DNA of 35,111 nucleotides. Origin: a virus. Of the stretch, positions 378-16,171 are shown in pieces. The notes beneath the pieces are model-generated. The model did no database searches, was not told the DNA's origin, and was given only the letters and a program-made list of their open reading frames with translations. The translations under genes and the position numbers were made by a program. Location: positions 1 to 35,111 of IMG/VR virus record IMGVR_UViG_3300034682_000265; one strand, given 5' to 3'. How positions within the stretch are numbered: the stretch's first letter is position 1; each line of letters opens with the position of its first letter.

Positions 378-1364
378 TCATGCGACAGGTAGCGGGTTTT
401 CCAGCGGGTTGAAGCGCACCGCATCGCTCAGATAGTCCGGTGCAAAGTGGGCATAGGTCATCGTTTGCTGGATGTTGTGATGGCCCAGAATTTTTTGCAG
501 CGCAAGGATGTTGCCCCCGGACATCATGAAGTGTGATGCAAACGTGTGCCGGAACACATGCACCGCCTGCCCTGCTGGCAGATCCGGCGCCACGGTCTTG
601 AGAACGTCACGCACCAGCAAATAGTCGAGGTCACGGAACAGCGGACCCCGGTTCACCCCGTTTGTTATCTCCTGACACAGCTCGGCCGAGATCGGCACGG
701 TGCGGTTCTTGCCATTCTTTGTGTTGATGTAGGTCACCCGGCTGGCCAGCACATCTTCACGGCGCAGATTGGCTGCTTCACTCCAACGCGCTCCCGTGGC
801 CAGACAGAGTTTGACCACTTTCAGGTTATCCCCAGATAGCGCAGCTAGAACGTCGCCGATCTCTTCCTGGGTCAGGTAGCCCATCGACCGCTCAACCAGT
901 TTGACCTTCTTCATCTCTTTGAGCGGGTGCTCGTGGTGGTAGTGACCGAGATCGGTGAGCACTGAGAAGACCCCGCCCAGCATCTCCTGCTCGCGGTTCA
1001 CAGTCTTGGGTTGTCGGCCGGCATGCAGTCGCTGCGCCCGATACTCGGAGAACAGAGCCCGGGTCACTTGTCTCGCCAACGGGTGGCGCAACGCGGCATC
1101 GATATTGTGGAGTTTCTTTCGTACCTCCCCCCCTGCTTTCAGGGTCTGGCCATGGTAGCGCCACCAGAGTTCGATCAGCTCGGATAGCGGCCGGTTATCT
1201 GCCGGGCGATCCACCCACTCTTTATTATGCTCGGTGGCGATCACCCAACGCTCGAACTGCTGGGCTTCGGACTTGGTCTTGAAGCGCTTGCGGATCCGCT
1301 TGCCTTCCCTCCCCTGCGGGCGGATATCGACCAGGTACCCTTCAGGCGTGGACTTGATACTCAT
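378..1364 (-). CDS. int: Tyrosine recombinase integrase
   Basis: Site-specific recombinase that integrates and, with Cox, excises the phage. The 328-residue protein has an N-terminal arm-binding/core-binding part and a C-terminal catalytic domain. Visible catalytic residues are Arg193 (in TGARWSEAANL), a probable beta-hairpin Lys near 219, His269-x-x-Arg272 (HVFRHT), His295 (LGHH) and the Tyr304 nucleophile (MTYAHF). The ATG start at 1364 has a strong AAGGAGG (about 1368-1374) and overlaps, as ATGA, the stop of a 27-codon leader ORF. A LexA box lies about 95 bp upstream, so transcription is probably SOS-controlled. It sits between the putative attP and the KAP gene, as in HP1/K139-type phages. 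Confidence 0.95.
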   Translation of the reverse strand: MSIKSTPEGYLVDIRPQGREGKRIRKRFKTKSEAQQFERWVIATEHNKEWVDRPADNRPLSELIELWWRYHGQTLKAGGEVRKKLHNIDAALRHPLARQVTRALFSEYRAQRLHAGRQPKTVNREQEMLGGVFSVLTDLGHYHHEHPLKEMKKVKLVERSMGYLTQEEIGDVLAALSGDNLKVVKLCLATGARWSEAANLRREDVLASRVTYINTKNGKNRTVPISAELCQEITNGVNRGPLFRDLDYLLVRDVLKTVAPDLPAGQAVHVFRHTFASHFMMSGGNILALQKILGHHNIQQTMTYAHFAPDYLSDAVRFNPLENPLPVA

Positions 1365-1444
1365 CGCCCCTCCTTATATAGAAAGGCGCTCACCCACCCA
1401 CACATCGGTACAGCTCCCAACTTCTGTACTGTCACTGTTATCAT
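1361..1444 (-). CDS. Short leader ORF overlapping the int start
   Basis: This 27-codon ORF starts with ATG at 1444, right behind an AAGGAGG sequence, and its TGA overlaps the int ATG (ATGA). The spacing from AAGGAGG to the ATG is only one base, which is short; a GTG at codon 4 has better spacing. The predicted peptide begins MITVTVQKLGAV and has no recognisable domain. It lies between the LexA box (1460-1475) and int, so any transcript from that promoter must carry it. The likely role is translational coupling to int rather than a functional peptide. Coding status is inferred from the ribosome site and the exact overlap. Confidence 0.4.
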   Translation of the reverse strand: MITVTVQKLGAVPMCGWVSAFLYKEGR

Positions 1445-1459
1445 ACCTCCTTCAAAATA

Positions 1460-1475
1460 CTGTTGTTTTATACAG
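1460..1475 (-). promoter_or_regulatory. LexA (SOS) box upstream of int
   Basis: CTGTTGTTTTATACAG is a perfect CTGT-N8-ACAG with an AT-rich centre; flanking bases (TA...TG) also resemble the enterobacterial SOS box. Read on the int strand it contains TATAAA, a good -10 hexamer, so LexA binding would occlude the promoter. It is 16 bp before the leader ATG and about 95 bp before int. Confidence 0.75.
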
Positions 1476-1828: not shown

Positions 1829-3355
1829 CTAATCCAGTGAAGCCGCAAGCTCTACTAAATCCCGATAAACTCTTTTATCTATCCGACGCATCTGTTCATT
1901 TAGATATTCAAATTTTAGCAGTGGTATATGAGTCTCCTCATTACGAAGCGACATGCCATCTTCGTTAAACATCTGTCGAATCTCTGCTTTAAATTCAGAT
2001 AGATTTATTCCATGCGTTGTGATCCTTGCTCCACTCTCACTTTCGAATACATCACTGGTATATAAAAAAATGGATTCAAAATATTTCTCTAAAGGACATG
2101 TCAAAATTTCAGACTCACTATCAACCATAGCACTAAATTTTAATTTAGAATGAAAGTAGCCTTTCCCCTTAAATAAGTCAATGTAATTCCCAACACTTAC
2201 CGAACCAACTGACATATTATAAATTTCAGTATCTCTAACCCTGAGGCAGTGAAGTATAGTGAGATAAATCAAATCTATTTTCGCACCTGGCTTCAAATTC
2301 AAAAGTGAAGCGACGATTCTATTCACGATTTGAATGGCCAACCTTGGTGATAGATTAAAAGACTCTAAAACATTAATTACATTTTCTATGTGCTTGTGAT
2401 GTGCAGGCCAAAGTATAATTTGGTGTTTTTCATAACAATCTCTAAACACGCTTGTGTTACAGTGCGACTCAATCAACGTTTTAAGAGGAGCTTCACGTAA
2501 ACTAAAACGAGAATCGAAAAATCTGGTTAAATATGTTTGCGCATCAAAACCATTGCCATAAACCACTTTAATTGCATGTTGAAGCTGTTCTGTATCTGTT
2601 GCGATAACAAAAAACACTCCAGGAATATCAAAGATATGCTTGACTGTTTCAAGCATTTCTACCGCATAGCTAGGGCGACAACGGTCCAGCTCATCAATAA
2701 TGACCACTGTGGGTTTTCCATCAAGAGAGCCTTGCCCTGATACCGCACCAATCCACCCAGTGATATCATTCTTCAGTGCCTTAATCGATGCACTCTTTTT
2801 TTCATGAGATGAAATCAAAAACTTAGCCATATTGGCTGCCGCATCCCCAACATCTTTGCTGATATCTGCGGAAACTGGTTCCAGCAATGATGTAATTTCG
2901 TTAATATCTTTCCCTAGATATTTTTTGGCTGCCGCACCAACCAATAATGGTCCCATAGCCTTTAACAGTGACCAACCGTTTTCCATCCCCTTTGATAATG
3001 CTGAGGTTTCTGGTTTGTCAGTAAGACCTCGCAACGTGGCAATGATTGCTGATATTACAGTCATAAATGGATCATCAGAGTGATCGCTCTTCCATGCATC
3101 TATATAAATGACTGGATGATGTTTCTCAAGGTCATACTTTAAACGCTTTAAGAAATAGGTCTTACCTGTGCCCCAACCGGAATTTAGGTTTAACACATAG
3201 GGTTTATCTTTATTCTGACCTAACAAGTACCCTGCCAAAAACCTAGCGTATTTTTCCCTACCTAGCTGGTCTTCACGAAAATGCTCATCATCGATATCTA
3301 CAGGACTGGACCAATCAATTTGCATACCGCTAGTTACATCGAGTTGTTTAGCCAT
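1829..3355 (-). CDS. KAP family P-loop NTPase (putative exclusion/defence cargo)
   Basis: A 508-residue KAP NTPase. The Walker A motif GWGTGKT lies at about residues 60-66 and Walker B VVIIDELDR at about 217-225, followed by CRPSY, the typical KAP signature. A weakly hydrophobic segment (about 130-147) sits between them, where KAP proteins often carry membrane insertions. The family includes F-plasmid PifA, which excludes phage T7, and several defence-associated NTPases. I chose ATG 3355, which has AAGGA about 8 bases upstream, over an upstream GTG at 3385 that lacks one. Base composition is clearly more AT-rich than the late genes, suggesting acquired cargo. It lies 74 bp downstream of the BRCT gene on the same strand, so the two are probably co-transcribed. 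The exclusion role is inference from family and location. Confidence 0.85.
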   Translation of the reverse strand: MAKQLDVTSGMQIDWSSPVDIDDEHFREDQLGREKYARFLAGYLLGQNKDKPYVLNLNSGWGTGKTYFLKRLKYDLEKHHPVIYIDAWKSDHSDDPFMTVISAIIATLRGLTDKPETSALSKGMENGWSLLKAMGPLLVGAAAKKYLGKDINEITSLLEPVSADISKDVGDAAANMAKFLISSHEKKSASIKALKNDITGWIGAVSGQGSLDGKPTVVIIDELDRCRPSYAVEMLETVKHIFDIPGVFFVIATDTEQLQHAIKVVYGNGFDAQTYLTRFFDSRFSLREAPLKTLIESHCNTSVFRDCYEKHQIILWPAHHKHIENVINVLESFNLSPRLAIQIVNRIVASLLNLKPGAKIDLIYLTILHCLRVRDTEIYNMSVGSVSVGNYIDLFKGKGYFHSKLKFSAMVDSESEILTCPLEKYFESIFLYTSDVFESESGARITTHGINLSEFKAEIRQMFNEDGMSLRNEETHIPLLKFEYLNEQMRRIDKRVYRDLVELAASLD

Positions 3356-3429
3356 TATAGTACATCCTTGACCTAGAATATTCACATATCACCAAGTGAA
3401 CTTATCAAACATGGATTCGTGTTAAAGCC

Positions 3430-4314
3430 TTATATCGGCTCTGAAGCAACCCTTACCCAGTCTTCTTCATTGATGATCTGAATAACCTGCCCTTTTTCCT
3501 TCGCTTTAATTACGGCTTCAATCTTGCGGCCATGGCTGGTGAACATCCAATCGCGGCTGGCCAGGCTGCCAACAATCAGCACATCGAGATGCGTAGTAAC
3601 CCCCTTCACAGGGGAGGCACCAAGCAGCTTGGCTTGCTGCTCTAAATTGTGACGGGTATCGGAGAGAAACTTTCCTGTGAAGCAGACTGTCTTGCCTCGA
3701 AGACTCATCACATTGCCATCGGCAAAGAACTCGGTCGCCATCCCAGCCGCAAGACCTGATTCTGTGAAGCGCTGCCCGGAAATCTGTTTCACCAGTTCCA
3801 GCAGATCTTCGCGCTCGTCTTCGGTGATTTCGCCATCTGCCAAAATATCGTTGAGACGGTTGAACAGCAGGCTACCCGGCCATGAGGCCAACAGGTCACG
3901 ATGCTTGAGCAGCAGCGCTCTAAGAGCATGCACCTCTTGTTCCACGATGTTGCTGTCGGCACTGATGCCTTGCAGGAAGCCGAGCAACATATTGACCAAC
4001 GCATCCATGTTGTCGTGCTCAATCTCGTTGTACTGCAGCACATCATTGAGCAGGTTCAACAGGTCTTCTTTCTCATCGGCTGTGATGATCCCATCTTTGA
4101 GAACGTCGTGGATGAGATCTTGAATATCGAGGAAATCACCATCTTTTTTGAACTCGGAATCCGATTTCAACCAAGTGGCCATAAAGAGAACTTCTGTGTC
4201 GTTAAGACGCTGATCGGCAGTGAGGCCGCTCAAGATACCGTGAAGGCTGATCAGTGCTTTTTGCTTATTGCGCTTGTAACCAAATGACATTGGCACATCA
4301 TTGAACTCTGACAT
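3430..4314 (-). CDS. TerB-like/BRCT-domain protein
   Basis: A 294-residue protein whose C-terminal region (about 203-290) is a BRCT domain of the DNA-ligase type: LRGKTVCFTGKF, then an LGASPVKGVTTHLDVLIVG-like core and a final W near 286. The N-terminal 180 residues are acidic and helical, with two similar segments, DGIITADEKEDLL (about 74-86) and DGEITEDEREDLL (about 160-172), reminiscent of TerB-like folds. The start ATG at 4314 has AGGGAG upstream. It precedes the KAP NTPase gene in the interval between cI and int, so the pair forms a two-gene unit likely expressed in the lysogen. Its function is unknown; BRCT domains bind DNA ends or phosphoproteins, so a sensor role is possible but unproven. 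Confidence 0.8.
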   Translation of the reverse strand: MSEFNDVPMSFGYKRNKQKALISLHGILSGLTADQRLNDTEVLFMATWLKSDSEFKKDGDFLDIQDLIHDVLKDGIITADEKEDLLNLLNDVLQYNEIEHDNMDALVNMLLGFLQGISADSNIVEQEVHALRALLLKHRDLLASWPGSLLFNRLNDILADGEITEDEREDLLELVKQISGQRFTESGLAAGMATEFFADGNVMSLRGKTVCFTGKFLSDTRHNLEQQAKLLGASPVKGVTTHLDVLIVGSLASRDWMFTSHGRKIEAVIKAKEKGQVIQIINEEDWVRVASEPI

Positions 4315-4401: not shown

Positions 4402-4429
4402 AAAAACAGGGCGCATTAGCGCCCTGTTT
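4402..4429 (-). terminator. Intrinsic terminator of the repressor gene
   Basis: AAACAGGGCGC (4404-4414) and GCGCCCTGTTT (4419-4429) form a perfect 11-bp stem with a 4-base loop (ATTA). Read leftward, the stem ends in TTTTTATA. The repressor's TAA stop (4416-4418) lies inside the loop. Confidence 0.85.
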
Positions 4430-5114
4430 GTCTTTTTCTGTATGACCTGTGTTCTACCATCACGCCGATGATCTGGATGTGTTGTCGGTCGGAATGCATG
4501 GTGGGGTAATCGTCATTGAGAGGGACCAGCTCAAACACCTCTTGTCCGCTCTCGTCGATGCCGCGGGGCCGGTACTTCTTGAAGGTGGCCTCTTCGCTGC
4601 CGTTCTTGGCCACGACGAAATCCCCTGGTTGGGGCGCTTCGTCGGGATCAACGATGATGAGGTCGCCTTCCTTAAAGAAGGGTTCCATCGACTGCCCACG
4701 CAACCAGAGGCCGAAACCACAAGGGCCAACATCCACCCCCGCCGTCACATACTCAACGTTGCCATCAAAAGCGGTGGCCTGTTCACACATCTCGTGCCAG
4801 TGGCCGGCCTGAACATAGCTCAGCACAGGCACGCGCGTACCTTGCGGGATCACGGCAGGTTCGACGTTGTGATATCCAGGCATCACTTCTGGTGCAGGCT
4901 GTGCCCTCGCCTCCCCGTCTCCAGTCAAAAGCCAGTCAACAGTGACCCCCAGCGCTGCCGCTAAATCATTGAGATAGCGACCCTTTGGCTGGTTAAGTCC
5001 CGACTCCCACTTGCTAACAGACGCATGGGAAATACCAACACGTCGGGCAAGCTCAGCCTTACTCATTTTCTGTGCCTGCCGGCTGGCAGTTATGCGGTCA
5101 TTGATCGTTTCCAT
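4416..5114 (-). CDS. CI-like repressor with LexA-type S24 autoprotease
   Basis: Maintains lysogeny by repressing the early promoter. The 232-residue protein has an N-terminal helix-turn-helix (about 17-38, recognition segment GISHASVSKW) and a C-terminal S24 peptidase. The predicted self-cleavage site is Ala103-Gly104 (YVQAGHW), with catalytic Ser142 (RGQSMEP) and Lys179 (EATFKKY). Known members of this class cleave themselves on contact with activated RecA. This differs from P2's own C repressor, which lacks a protease domain, and resembles repressors of inducible phages. The gene is divergent from the Cro-like gene across four operator-like repeats, and its stop codon lies in the loop of its own terminator. 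Confidence 0.93.
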   Translation of the reverse strand: METINDRITASRQAQKMSKAELARRVGISHASVSKWESGLNQPKGRYLNDLAAALGVTVDWLLTGDGEARAQPAPEVMPGYHNVEPAVIPQGTRVPVLSYVQAGHWHEMCEQATAFDGNVEYVTAGVDVGPCGFGLWLRGQSMEPFFKEGDLIIVDPDEAPQPGDFVVAKNGSEEATFKKYRPRGIDESGQEVFELVPLNDDYPTMHSDRQHIQIIGVMVEHRSYRKRQTGR

Positions 5115-12083: not shown

Positions 12084-12860
12084 TTGAATTTAGGAAAACA
12101 AGATGGGATTAACGCTCAGATGATTACGAGACCCATACAGCTTTTGGCGGCATGGCTTGTAGGGCTAATTTTCGTAAACGGTACTTTTTTGATAACCGCT
12201 CAAGCTTTCAATTCAATAGAATGGCTCGCTGCAACCTTGGTAATAGCATCAGTTATCAATGTCCCTATTTTTTTATTCTCATTGTTTTTATTGCAAACAA
12301 AATTCAGGCCAGAAATACAGGAGGACCATTATTACAGCCAATATATCAAGGACAAACTTGGTCGTGATATGACTAGTAAATCAATAAGTTTGGCAAAAAA
12401 TAACATTACAGAAACCGTAGTAGATAGCGTTGAAGTAGATAACGTTATAACTGACTCTTTGTGGTCTCAAGTAAAAATACTTTTCAACCCTCACTTAAAT
12501 ATTTCTGATAAAGTTCGTGCTGAACTTGATAAGAATGGCATACCTATATCAGAAGAATTTGGAAGCAAGAGTTGGATTCCTGAATTTGTAGTTTCGATTG
12601 GTCGATATCTGACCTATGAACAAATATCAGTGATTCTAGATAGTATTAAAAGCATACCTGATATTCACGTGTCATTTTCAAATGATGATGATGAGATATA
12701 TGAATGGGATCGCACAGTATTGATAGGCTCATATTTCTATGATGTTGATAGAAAGTCGTATCCTATATCAAAGGCATTGGAATTACTGGAAACATCTGGT
12801 GGTAATGTAAAGGCATTTTATCAAAAGCTATTTGATCGCCAGCGTGATGAAGATACATAA
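12084..12860 (+). CDS. AT-rich membrane protein, cargo gene 2
   Basis: A 258-residue protein with two likely membrane segments near the N-terminus (about residues 19-39 and 48-70), then a soluble cytoplasmic-type domain of about 185 residues. No recognised domain. I use the TTG at 12084, which has GGAG seven bases upstream; an in-frame ATG at 12120 lacks a ribosome site and would cut closer to the first membrane segment. Composition is AT-rich like gene 1, and both are oriented alike with an 80-bp gap that contains a hairpin. Probably one acquired unit; function unknown. Confidence 0.75.
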   Translation: MNLGKQDGINAQMITRPIQLLAAWLVGLIFVNGTFLITAQAFNSIEWLAATLVIASVINVPIFLFSLFLLQTKFRPEIQEDHYYSQYIKDKLGRDMTSKSISLAKNNITETVVDSVEVDNVITDSLWSQVKILFNPHLNISDKVRAELDKNGIPISEEFGSKSWIPEFVVSIGRYLTYEQISVILDSIKSIPDIHVSFSNDDDEIYEWDRTVLIGSYFYDVDRKSYPISKALELLETSGGNVKAFYQKLFDRQRDEDT

Positions 12861-12920: not shown

Positions 12921-12946
12921 ACTAGGGACGCTATTGCGCCCCTAGT
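12921..12946. terminator. Hairpin terminating ogr and cargo transcripts
   Basis: ACTAGGG (12921-12927) pairs with CCCTAGT (12940-12946), extended inside by CGC with GCG around a TATT loop. It lies between convergent genes. The stop codon of the Ogr-like gene (12931-12933) is within it. T-tracts on either side are weak. Confidence 0.6.
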
Positions 12947-13182
12947 CCTTTCAATACCAATTGCCGCCCCTCCGGCGTGAGCGCCTCCATCAAGCTGATC
13001 ACTAGTTGGTTCGTGGTCTTGGCCGAGGGGCTTAGGGTGTGGGCGAACGACAAGGTGGCCACCCAGCTGTGGCCACACTCTGCATCGGTGCACTGGCAGT
13101 AGAGATCCGAGACATCATCGCTCAGTCGGTTGGTCTTGGTAATGCGGCCCCGTTGGCCACACACTTTGCAATAAACCCGCAT
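12931..13182 (-). CDS. ogr: Ogr/Delta-type zinc-finger late transcription activator
   Basis: Activates late promoters by contacting RNA polymerase alpha in P2 and its relatives. The 83-residue protein has the exact family zinc motif C-X2-C-X22-C-X4-C: Cys5, Cys8, Cys31 and Cys36. I use ATG 13182, preceded by AAGGGGG; an in-frame ATG at 13203 has no ribosome site. Upstream lies a perfect LexA box (13233-13248), so expression is probably induced by the SOS response. In P2 ogr lies at the far end of the tail operon beside attP; here it is next to portal gene Q, on the same strand. Its targets are probably the divergent P and O promoters. Confidence 0.9.
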   Translation of the reverse strand: MRVYCKVCGQRGRITKTNRLSDDVSDLYCQCTDAECGHSWVATLSFAHTLSPSAKTTNQLVISLMEALTPEGRQLVLKGLGAQ

Positions 13183-13232
13183 TACGCCCCCTTTTCTATC
13201 CAAATCAACAGCCTATCTTGCCACAGAAAACA

Positions 13233-13248
13233 CTGTTTGTTTATACAG
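13233..13248 (-). promoter_or_regulatory. LexA (SOS) box upstream of the Ogr-like gene
   Basis: CTGTTTGTTTATACAG is a perfect CTGT-N8-ACAG with AT-rich centre. On the minus strand it includes TATAAA, usable as a -10. It covers the TAA stop of portal gene Q (13241-13243) and ends about 50 bp before the Ogr start, so Q and ogr can be uncoupled: Q read-through plus a separate SOS promoter. Confidence 0.75.
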
Positions 13249-14257
13249 TTGAACCGGTATTCTCCCGAAAATCGACCCAAAGGGATCGAGGGAGTCCAGT
13301 GCTGTTGACGGCGTCCTGGATAAGCTCGCACAACGGCAGCACCTCGTTGCGGGCATAGGTGGCATCGTACTTCTCGGGATCCCCGAGCCCTCCCCCGCCA
13401 TTGGTCGGAATGATGCCCGCCAACGCCGCCGGAAAACGGTGAGAAGTCAGTACGTCCTGGGCGGTGATCCCCTTGATTGCCGCAAACTCGTCCTTGGTGG
13501 CGATGTCCCCCACCGGAATAAGCTTGATGCCATCGGGCTTGCCGTCCGGGATGTTGACGAACATGGAGCGAAAGTTCCCTACCCCCTTGCTGCTGGCGAT
13601 CATCTCTTTCATCTCTTCCTCGGTATCGTCGTCCATGTTCGGGTCGGTGGCATAGAAGATGAACCCCATGTGGGCGCCATTGAGGAAGTATTTGCGCCGA
13701 AACAGGGTGGCGTCCTGGTTAAGCAGGGCCGACTGCAGACCCCCTAGGTAATCGGGCATGCCATAGACCTGCTGCTCGGGGTCGTACTGAGCCAGCCAGA
13801 TCACATCCTCCGGGCGGTAAATCAGGTTCGGCTTGCCCTGCTGCAGGTAGACAAAGCAGCCATCCTCGCGCCGGCGCAGGTAGACGCTCGAGAGCGGGTG
13901 CAGCCCCACCACCTGGCCAAAGCCGTTTCGCAATTTGAGCAGGCCCGCATCCCCAAACTGCAGGTAGTTGTGCACGAACGCCGTGATGGTGGCGCGCTGG
14001 TTGGTGAAGCGCCCCGCCACCATGTTGCGGCGCGCCATCAGGATGGCCCCGTGGTGGGCGTTGGCCCTCGCCACCTTAGCCAGGCCCTTGCGCTCGATAG
14101 GCGGCTGGTAATACTCGCCGTAGGGGTTGTAGAACACCCCAGTGTAATCGGTCATCCAAGCCGTGGGGTCGATGGCCTCTGGCATGCTGAAGGCCACTGC
14201 GCTGCGGTTGGGTGAGGCGACCGCGTGGGCCGGTTGTTGTTTCTGTCGCTTGGTCAT
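13241..14257 (-). CDS. Q: Portal protein (P2 gpQ-like)
   Basis: Forms the dodecameric portal at the capsid vertex through which DNA enters and leaves. The 338-residue length matches P2 gpQ (344). The core YLQFGDAGLLKLRNGFGQ and the stretch around LYRPEDVIWL/YGMPDYLGGLQSALL are typical of the PBSX-type portal family. The ATG at 14257 overlaps the P stop, so P and Q are coupled on the minus strand, divergent from the rest of the late genes. The 3' end overlaps the LexA box that precedes ogr. Confidence 0.93.
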   Translation of the reverse strand: MTKRQKQQPAHAVASPNRSAVAFSMPEAIDPTAWMTDYTGVFYNPYGEYYQPPIERKGLAKVARANAHHGAILMARRNMVAGRFTNQRATITAFVHNYLQFGDAGLLKLRNGFGQVVGLHPLSSVYLRRREDGCFVYLQQGKPNLIYRPEDVIWLAQYDPEQQVYGMPDYLGGLQSALLNQDATLFRRKYFLNGAHMGFIFYATDPNMDDDTEEEMKEMIASSKGVGNFRSMFVNIPDGKPDGIKLIPVGDIATKDEFAAIKGITAQDVLTSHRFPAALAGIIPTNGGGGLGDPEKYDATYARNEVLPLCELIQDAVNSTGLPRSLWVDFRENTGSTV

Positions 14258-16068
14258 GCTGCCTTCTTCTCCTGGCTAGTTGCCCAGGTGGATTTGCGTT
14301 TGCGTTGGGTATCAAGAGGTTCGTTCGCCACGGCGTGGGCAATGGCAAAGAACACATCGGCGTGTCCAGTCACGTTGTCGCGCGCCGCGCGGAACGTCAT
14401 CTGGCCGCCGCCGGTGGTGCTGCGCTTGATGGCGAGGAAGGCGAGCGGGATGTCCCGATCCGAGCTGTCCCACTCGATGCGGTTCGCCTCCACCACGTCG
14501 ATCATCTTGAGGACCAGCCGCGACTTGCTCTCGATGCTGTAGTTGATGGGGTGGCACACCCCTTTGAACACCGGTTTCAAGAGGTCAAATACCCCGGCGC
14601 CGATGCCGGAGACGTCAACACCGAGGTACGTGACCCGGAATTTCTTGGCGATGCGCTCGATCTCCTGCGCCTGGAACTGGAAGTTGAGCCCGCGCCAGTA
14701 GTGCTTTTCCAGCACCCGGAAGCGCTCGCCGGCGACGGTGGGCGGGGCGATCACCACCAGGGTGGCGTTGTCGCGGGTGCGGCTCGGGTCATAGCCCAGC
14801 CACACCTCCCGCCGGCCGAACGGATCAGGCCGCCCTGGCTTGTAGTCCTCCCACCGGGTGGGGTCCACCCCTGCCCGCTCCATGTCCTGAAACTTGAACA
14901 CCGACAGGGCATCGTCGATAAACCGGCACATGTAGAGGCGGTCGAACACCTCCTCCGGGTACTCGTCCTTGAGCTCCTCGATGTCGATGAGGTGGCAACC
15001 GAGGCAAATGGCGTCCTCGATGGTGATCACGTAACGCCATTGCCTGTCCGGACAGACGCGGCCACCGTCGCGCAGCTCATCTTCGCCCGGGAAGTCGATG
15101 GCCACCCGGCTCGGGCGCTGTCCCTTCCAGCGATCCCCGGTCCAGAAGCGGTACGCCTCGTGCACCTTGCTCGACGGGGTCGAGAAGTAGGTCTTGCGCC
15201 AGTGGCTCTGGGTCGCCATGGCACTGGCCACGTCCGAGAGCTTCTCGAAGTTGGGGATCCAGAAATATTCATCGATGTAGACGTTGCCGGAGCGGGATTG
15301 GGCGCTGTTGGAGTTGGTAGAGCAGAAATGGAGCTCAGCACCGTTCGACAGCACGATGGGGTTGCCGGTCAGGGTGACGCCGAGGAAGGTCTGGGCAATC
15401 TTGCAGATGTAGGAGCGGAACACCTCCGCCTGGGCCCGGGTGGCGGACAGGAAAATCTGGTTGCCGCCGGTCAGAATGGCATCCTCCAGAGCCTCGCCGG
15501 CGAAGTAGTAGGTCATGCCGATCTGGCGGGACTTCAAGATGTTGCGGGTGCGCGGCAGCGCCGGGTCGTTCTTGGCCTCCCGCACCCGCAACTGATAGCC
15601 AAACAGGGTGCCCAGCCACTCGGTGAAGTCGGCCTCGGTCAGGTGGCCGATCTCGTTCTTGGCCTTCTTGCCGCCCTTGCGACTGCCGCCTGCCTGGCGG
15701 CTTTGCTCACGCTTTCCACGGCTGGGCCCGGGTTCATGCCCTTGCTCACGCAGGATCTTGATGGCCTGCTCGCGCTCGGCCCACTTGAGCGCCTTCTCTT
15801 TGAGGCTGACATGGTGGCCGATAAGTCGGTCCAGCTCCTCCTGCTCGCCCGGGGTTTTCTTCTCCCGATGCAGCAACACCTGCACACGGCGATTGATGGC
15901 ATCCTCCACTGCCTCTTCGGTCAGCAAGTCGCGCCAGCCGAGCTTTTCGGCCCAGTAGTAGATGATGCGACAGGAGTTGAGCCCCAGTTCGTCCTTGATC
16001 TCCTGGGGTGTCCATCGTTTAAGGTAGAGTCCCTTCGCCGCATTGCGGATCTCTTCGGGGTACGCCAC
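14254..16068 (-). CDS. P: Terminase large subunit, ATPase/nuclease (P2 gpP-like)
   Basis: Motor that drives DNA into the procapsid. The 604-residue protein has an N-terminal helix-turn-helix (about 18-42), the P2-type Walker A variant KSRQIGMTY (179-187), Walker B NVYIDEYF (262-269) and probable RNase-H-like nuclease acidic residues Asp427 (GYDPSRTRDN), Asp485 (GVDVSG) and Asp571 (GHADVFFA). It starts with GTG at 16068, with GGAGG four bases upstream. It works with small subunit M, encoded on the other strand. A 16-bp palindrome lies just upstream at 16087-16102. Confidence 0.95.
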   Translation of the reverse strand: MAYPEEIRNAAKGLYLKRWTPQEIKDELGLNSCRIIYYWAEKLGWRDLLTEEAVEDAINRRVQVLLHREKKTPGEQEELDRLIGHHVSLKEKALKWAEREQAIKILREQGHEPGPSRGKREQSRQAGGSRKGGKKAKNEIGHLTEADFTEWLGTLFGYQLRVREAKNDPALPRTRNILKSRQIGMTYYFAGEALEDAILTGGNQIFLSATRAQAEVFRSYICKIAQTFLGVTLTGNPIVLSNGAELHFCSTNSNSAQSRSGNVYIDEYFWIPNFEKLSDVASAMATQSHWRKTYFSTPSSKVHEAYRFWTGDRWKGQRPSRVAIDFPGEDELRDGGRVCPDRQWRYVITIEDAICLGCHLIDIEELKDEYPEEVFDRLYMCRFIDDALSVFKFQDMERAGVDPTRWEDYKPGRPDPFGRREVWLGYDPSRTRDNATLVVIAPPTVAGERFRVLEKHYWRGLNFQFQAQEIERIAKKFRVTYLGVDVSGIGAGVFDLLKPVFKGVCHPINYSIESKSRLVLKMIDVVEANRIEWDSSDRDIPLAFLAIKRSTTGGGQMTFRAARDNVTGHADVFFAIAHAVANEPLDTQRKRKSTWATSQEKKAA

Positions 16069-16145: not shown

Positions 16146-16171
16146 ATTCGGATTTCCTGCTGGATCCGAAT
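16146..16171. promoter_or_regulatory. Dyad in the divergent P/O late-promoter region
   Basis: ATTCGGAT (16146-16153) and ATCCGAAT (16164-16171) are perfect 8-bp inverted repeats around 10 bases. The centre is 90 bp from the P start and 85 bp from the O start. Candidate -10 elements (TATGAT leftward, GATAGC at 16211-16216 rightward) put both start points about 66 bp from the centre. P2 Ogr sites lie near -55, so this is the best candidate for the activator's site. Confidence 0.5.

Follow-up and report, generated by a model that had tools for sequence, protein, structure and literature searches.

A conserved LexA-type box at the promoter of the late activator gene ogr suggests SOS control in a group of P2-like phages

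Introduction

In the usual account of prophage induction the phage repressor is lost, either through CI cleavage or by means of a LexA-controlled antirepressor. The locus analysed here raises the question of whether the host SOS repressor may instead be placed on the gene for the late transcription activator itself. The window, by which we mean the whole stretch of 35,111 bp that was analysed, is a virus record of an Aeromonas P2-like phage related to phiO18P, for which an initial annotation had proposed that a LexA box in front of ogr would make the late activator an SOS gene.

Results

The source phage and its late activator

The Q-ogr region of the window is 84% identical to that of phiO18P (Bielevirus, Peduoviridae), and the genome is colinear and P2-like, with the order int, morons, cI, cox/cII-like genes, replication gene A, further morons, a leftward P-Q-ogr block and a rightward block from O onward, gene O being assigned from its position and from comparison with phiO18P. 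The genes relevant here are the following:

378..1364, minus strand: int, tyrosine integrase (PF00589/PF24624)
4416..5114, minus strand: cI, prophage repressor of the self-cleaving type with HTH and Peptidase_S24 domains (PF01381 and PF00717; phrog_4)
12931..13182, minus strand: ogr, late transcription activator of 83 aa with an Ogr/Delta zinc finger (PF04606, Ogr_Delta, E=7.5e-14; phrog_603)
13241..14257, minus strand: Q, portal protein, whose stop codon lies inside the ogr box (PF04860)
14254..16068, minus strand: P, terminase large subunit (PF03237/PF17289)

P, Q and ogr share one orientation, ogr coming directly after the other two, and the Ogr cysteines C5, C8, C31 and C36, as befits an Ogr/Delta zinc finger, are unchanged across 19 relatives. 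As the repressor combines an HTH with a Peptidase_S24 domain, RecA-dependent cleavage of CI is probable, although it is inferred from these domains only.

Two further regions deserve mention. A KAP-family P-loop NTPase and a BRCT-like protein (1829-3385 and 3430-4314) are inserted between int and cI and could be moron or defence genes, and the ORF that adjoins ogr (12084-12860, 258 aa) is an AT-rich moron without any match in Pfam or PHROGs.

A LexA-type box overlaps the end of Q and precedes ogr

The box had been placed at 13233-13248, overlapping the stop codon of Q and 50 bp before the start of ogr, and all three claims held. The 16-mer CTGTTTGTTTATACAG is found exactly at that position and, read on the ogr strand from 13248 to 13233, gives CTGTATAAACAAACAG, a canonical LexA-type box. 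The stop codon of Q (TAA, 13243-13241) falls within it, and the gap to the ogr ATG (13182) is exactly 50 bp. The description of the box as perfect held only in part, since it is true of the CTGT-N8-ACAG ends, whereas the centre departs at three positions from the full consensus CTGTATATATATACAG. Seven of the eight central positions are A/T, making the site a palindrome with an AT-rich centre. The elements of the putative promoter are:

13233..13248, minus strand: LexA-type operator of the ogr promoter, CTGTATAAACAAACAG, supported by sequence match, rank and conservation; LexA binding is inferred
13238..13243, minus strand: candidate -35, TAAACA (4/6), inside the ogr box, inferred from the 17-nt spacing
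13215..13220, minus strand: candidate -10, CAAGAT, extended by a preceding TGG; its position is kept in relatives as CATAAT, TAAGAT or TATAAT

Exact CTGT-N8-ACAG sites occur only twice in the window, at ogr and upstream of int (1460-1475), and the chance expectation for a match to the full consensus with three mismatches or fewer is 0.01. In a LexA-likeness index referenced to E. coli LexA boxes, the two best values in the window were those of the ogr box (3.9, rank one) and the int box (5.8, rank two), well ahead of a third site at 10.4.

The box is conserved across divergent P2-like phages

Among 80 related ogr loci of the Aeromonas type (viral contigs with an Ogr identity of 60-96%), a box of the form CTGT-N8-(A/C/T)CAG was present in every one, 62-73 nt upstream of the ATG; 52 of these boxes were perfect, 27 ended in CCAG and one in TCAG. 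CCAG ends also occur in genuine E. coli boxes, such as those of uvrB and uvrD. With the Ogr of K139 as query, the box was found in 51/54 Vibrio loci, as a rule 63-66 nt upstream of the start codon, and with that of C5a in 50/51 Pseudoalteromonas loci, mostly at 41-46 nt, where it reads CTGTATATAATNACAG and contains the -10 TATAAT. Pasteurella phage F108 has a perfect box (CTGTATAAAATCACAG), and that of HP2 is degenerate, with two mismatches, the HP1 sequence being identical to it.

When each group was thinned to representatives with less than 85% identity in the upstream region, the box counts were 19/19 for Aeromonas, 19/22 for Vibrio and 24/26 for Pseudoalteromonas, compared with a shuffle expectation of 0.04-0.06 per group. 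Of 120-nt segments drawn at random from these loci, 2-7% contained a box. A scan of 1.42 Mb of Aeromonas loci recovered the box at ogr in 78/80, with only 18 AT-rich boxes elsewhere, and in the Vibrio set the box columns averaged 1.83 bits, versus 0.56 in the upstream flank and 1.13 in the downstream flank. A chance match is ruled out by this conservation across divergent representatives.

Coding constraint from the C-terminus of Q was also considered and rejected. Only the first half of the box contributes to the C-terminal codons of Q, the second half lying beyond its stop codon; this codon can be TAA, TAG or TGA while the box around it is retained; and in K139, which has an extra gene (orf14) between Q and ogr, the box is still kept. 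The wiring inferred from these boxes would therefore not be peculiar to the phage of the window but common to a large group of P2-like phages.

The box was absent from some groups and loci. It was found in none of 13 Pseudomonas representatives (<85% upstream identity), nor at the loci of the enteric phages SI7, ESSI-2 and YenM_324, of Burkholderia phages KS5 and KS14, or at 186 B. A few relatives lack it (L148, L284, L285 and L289) and in another (L198) it is degraded; in L148 and in L284/L285 different sequences precede a good -10. In L148 (position 9954) another palindrome, AACTTAATGAGTT, stands immediately before the TATAAT of the ogr promoter, and it could be a swapped repressor operator. 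In an Aeromonas dhakensis prophage remnant (L168:9100-10249), the box has been lost at the point where ogr joins host enoyl-CoA hydratase DNA.

Position of the box in the putative ogr promoter

In the window, the layout TAAACA-17-CAAGAT puts the candidate -35 in the box, whereas in the C5a phages the box covers the -10 instead. A -10-like element lies 7-12 nt past the box at a near-constant spacing typical of each lineage, in Aeromonas as CAAGAT, CAAAAT or CATAAT preceded by TGG, as TAAGAT or as TATAAT, and in Vibrio mostly as TATGAT. The listing of sigma-70 promoters gave no match at the ogr promoter, and because the promoter is weak by consensus, the transcription start of ogr is only inferred.

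The box matches those of host SOS genes

In order to compare the phage boxes with those of likely hosts, 13 Aeromonadaceae lexA genes were inspected. Each has two boxes, the proximal one being CTGTATAAAAAGACAG or CTGTATAAAAAAACAG in nearly all, and many phage ogr boxes match CTGTATAAAAAAACAG letter for letter. Boxes of this type are also present at 11 Aeromonadaceae recA genes, so that the phage box matches those of lexA and recA in the likely host. Moreover, ten sister Aeromonas prophages (L085, L088, L092, L098, L109, L111, L112, L131, L132 and L135) carry a UmuD-like gene with an S24 domain 1.1-2.9 kb from ogr, and in all ten a box of this type lies close upstream of that gene. These boxed umuD-like genes serve as an internal positive control for the box type.

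Neither CI nor Ogr is a likely owner of the site

The box could alternatively be an operator of the phage's own CI, as at pB of 186, where CI represses the homologous gene B; in addition, the repressor of the window is LexA-like in its C-terminal half. Against this, loci with identical ogr upstream sequences and boxes, for example L091 and L105, encode CI proteins with unrelated DNA-binding domains. The cI-cro region of the window contains TAAGTT/AACTTA repeats and no CTGT-N8-ACAG, that of phiO18P is entirely different from it, and no exact box exists in the window beyond those of int and ogr. We consider this explanation very unlikely.

A second possibility is that the box is an autoregulatory site of Ogr or is bound by some other regulator of the phage. 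P2 ogr has been described as autoregulated (PMC8537503), and P2-type Ogr sites are also dyads, of the form TGT-N12-ACA near -55. However, the spacing in the box is N8 and not N12, the box lies over the -35 (over the -10 in the C5a phages) and not at -55, TGT-N12-ACA is no more frequent than expected by chance, and boxes of this type also occur at umuD and host lexA. A different dyad is conserved at the late promoters and is not present at ogr:

16147..16170, no strand assigned: perfect dyad TTCGGAT-N10-ATCCGAA between the divergent genes P and O, with arms invariant and spacer variable in relatives

The invariant arms and variable spacer were seen in the window and in phiO18P, A051, P05B, L142 and L151. 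This dyad, unlike the TGT-N12-ACA of P2, is probably the Ogr site of the late promoters, a prediction for which there are no data on Ogr binding or activation, and as it is the sole copy in the window, it is likely to be a single divergent control point for late transcription. Ownership of the ogr box by Ogr or another phage regulator is thus also very improbable. Both alternatives are disfavoured because the box stays constant while the repressor changes and because it differs from the late-promoter dyad.

A second box upstream of int

The other exact box of the window precedes the integrase gene:

1460..1475, minus strand: LexA-type box CTGTATAAAACAACAG upstream of int, exact CTGT-N8-ACAG, second-ranked in the window
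1440..1445, minus strand: candidate -10 of int, TATGAT, 14 nt past the box

It is kept in 15 of 27 related int loci (L452-L478), 119-130 nt upstream of int, with 14 perfect copies and one with a single mismatch, the other 12 loci having unrelated upstream DNA. Because of this conservation SOS control of the P2-like int is likely too, again as an inference from sequence alone.

Read-through from the late operon

The most serious objection is that the box is a genuine LexA site of little effect, ogr being transcribed by read-through from P-Q or from a leaky promoter, and induction depending on CI cleavage alone. In its favour, P, Q and ogr all run leftward, the Q-ogr interval yielded no terminator, CI carries an S24 domain, and phage A051 grows lytically with its box intact. 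However, the P-Q promoter should itself need Ogr, so that something must start the loop. In addition, retention of the box in the divergent representatives of the three groups, while the stop codon and the box centre change, points to steady selection, and K139 keeps the box despite the intervening orf14. We therefore regard this alternative as unlikely. Nevertheless, as ogr lies directly downstream of P and Q without a detected terminator, read-through from the late operon probably adds to its expression and, once Ogr is made, would provide positive feedback.

A051 keeps the ogr box and is reported to form plaques stably without inducer (PMC11292799), indicating that any LexA repression is overcome, bypassed or incomplete in lytic growth.

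As a separate observation, the cI of this 'virulent' phage (L002:10893-11749) looks full length, its start having been annotated too far downstream, so that something else may account for the loss of lysogeny reported for it.

Discussion

Proposed regulation of ogr

LexA control of ogr is favoured by the deep conservation of the box, its identity with lexA boxes, its placement in the putative promoter and the exclusion of CI and Ogr as its likely owners. Our preferred reading, to which we assign a probability of about 0.83, is that LexA represses a dedicated ogr promoter, and that of int, beside a self-cleaving CI. The boxes, their conservation, their placement in candidate promoters, the match to host LexA boxes and the gene identities are read from the sequence; LexA binding, repression, the damage response, the transcription start, the action of Ogr at the dyad and the feedback are inferred.

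In a lysogen, host LexA bound over the -35/spacer region would keep the late activator off. Upon DNA damage, RecA would promote cleavage of LexA and ogr would be transcribed, after which Ogr would switch on the late genes, probably via the divergent P/O dyad, and, as ogr lies behind the co-oriented genes P and Q, could in turn influence its own expression. At the same time, RecA would trigger cleavage of the S24-type CI, freeing the early genes, and through the second box int would also respond to damage. The proposal of the initial annotation that the late activator is an SOS gene is thus supported by sequence evidence, without binding or transcription data, and is refined in two respects: because the prophage repressor is itself of the self-cleaving S24 type, LexA at ogr would be a second, parallel SOS input, and read-through from P-Q probably contributes to ogr expression.

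A bolder version can be advanced only tentatively, as we hold it more likely to fail than to stand. It states that in a broad P2-like branch on Aeromonas, Vibrio, Pseudoalteromonas and Pasteurella host LexA, and not the phage repressor, directly gates the late programme, that damage could bypass CI in starting the virion and lysis genes, and that SOS raised by replication could release the late genes in lytic infection. As part of this version, the two promoter layouts would suggest repeated origin or rebuilding of the wiring.

Comparison with known systems

Phage 186 (Eganvirus) resembles the window in being P2-like, in having an Ogr-type late activator with its own promoter, repressed in the lysogen, and in carrying a LexA box (CTGTATGTTTATACAG before tum). 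In 186, however, LexA acts at p95, the promoter of the antirepressor gene tum, and two CI sites repress pB of B, whereas in the window the LexA box is on the late activator itself, in the slot held by CI in 186, and CI is of the S24 type. The earlier statement that LexA in 186 controls tum and not the late activator, so that the window differs, was borne out by the 186 GenBank record. No tum-like antirepressor was found behind a LexA box in the window, whose two boxes precede int and ogr, and none of 10 proteins scanned against PHROGs matched Tum/DinI, small ORFs being only partly covered.

The nearest functional precedent is the tectivirus GIL01 of Bacillus thuringiensis, in which host LexA directly represses phage promoters and, with gp7, represses the late promoter P3, which also needs the phage activator gp6 (PMC6182141). 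GIL01 is an unrelated phage in which LexA plus gp7 is the lysogenic repressor, without a dedicated phage repressor, whereas in the window LexA would act beside CI and on an activator gene. CTXphi of Vibrio cholerae also combines a LexA site in a prophage promoter with a phage repressor, RstR (PMC3323433), but it is filamentous, and the genes under control are rstA/rstR, which provide replication and repressor functions, and not a late activator gene. P2 ogr encodes a homologous activator and has its own promoter, but it adjoins int/attP and is described as autoregulated, and P2 itself reportedly lacks SOS inducibility. Regarding int, integron integrases and a LexA-bound phage integrase likewise represent tyrosine recombinase genes under LexA (PMC3998124); those bound sites came from integrons and a gut metagenome, whereas in the window a single prophage has boxes at both int and ogr.

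No report of LexA at ogr was found in the open-access literature searched, most subscription papers being outside its scope. Passages on the C5a-like ACA phages, Smhb1 and A051 treat ogr, SOS or regulation and leave a LexA site at ogr unmentioned.

Biological meaning

Here the host SOS repressor appears to be placed directly on the switch gene for particle production and lysis, as well as on int. It is likely, although inferred, that the damage alarm of the host unlocks the late programme directly, beyond the phage's own repressor, and LexA acting in parallel to a self-cleaving CI would constitute a testable two-input design. The wiring seems to be present in the well-known phages K139, phiO18P, C5a and F108. 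It bears on the coupling of late transcription to DNA replication in P2-like phages, and on the question of why damage may still lead to particle formation or lysis in cells whose prophages are defective or silent.
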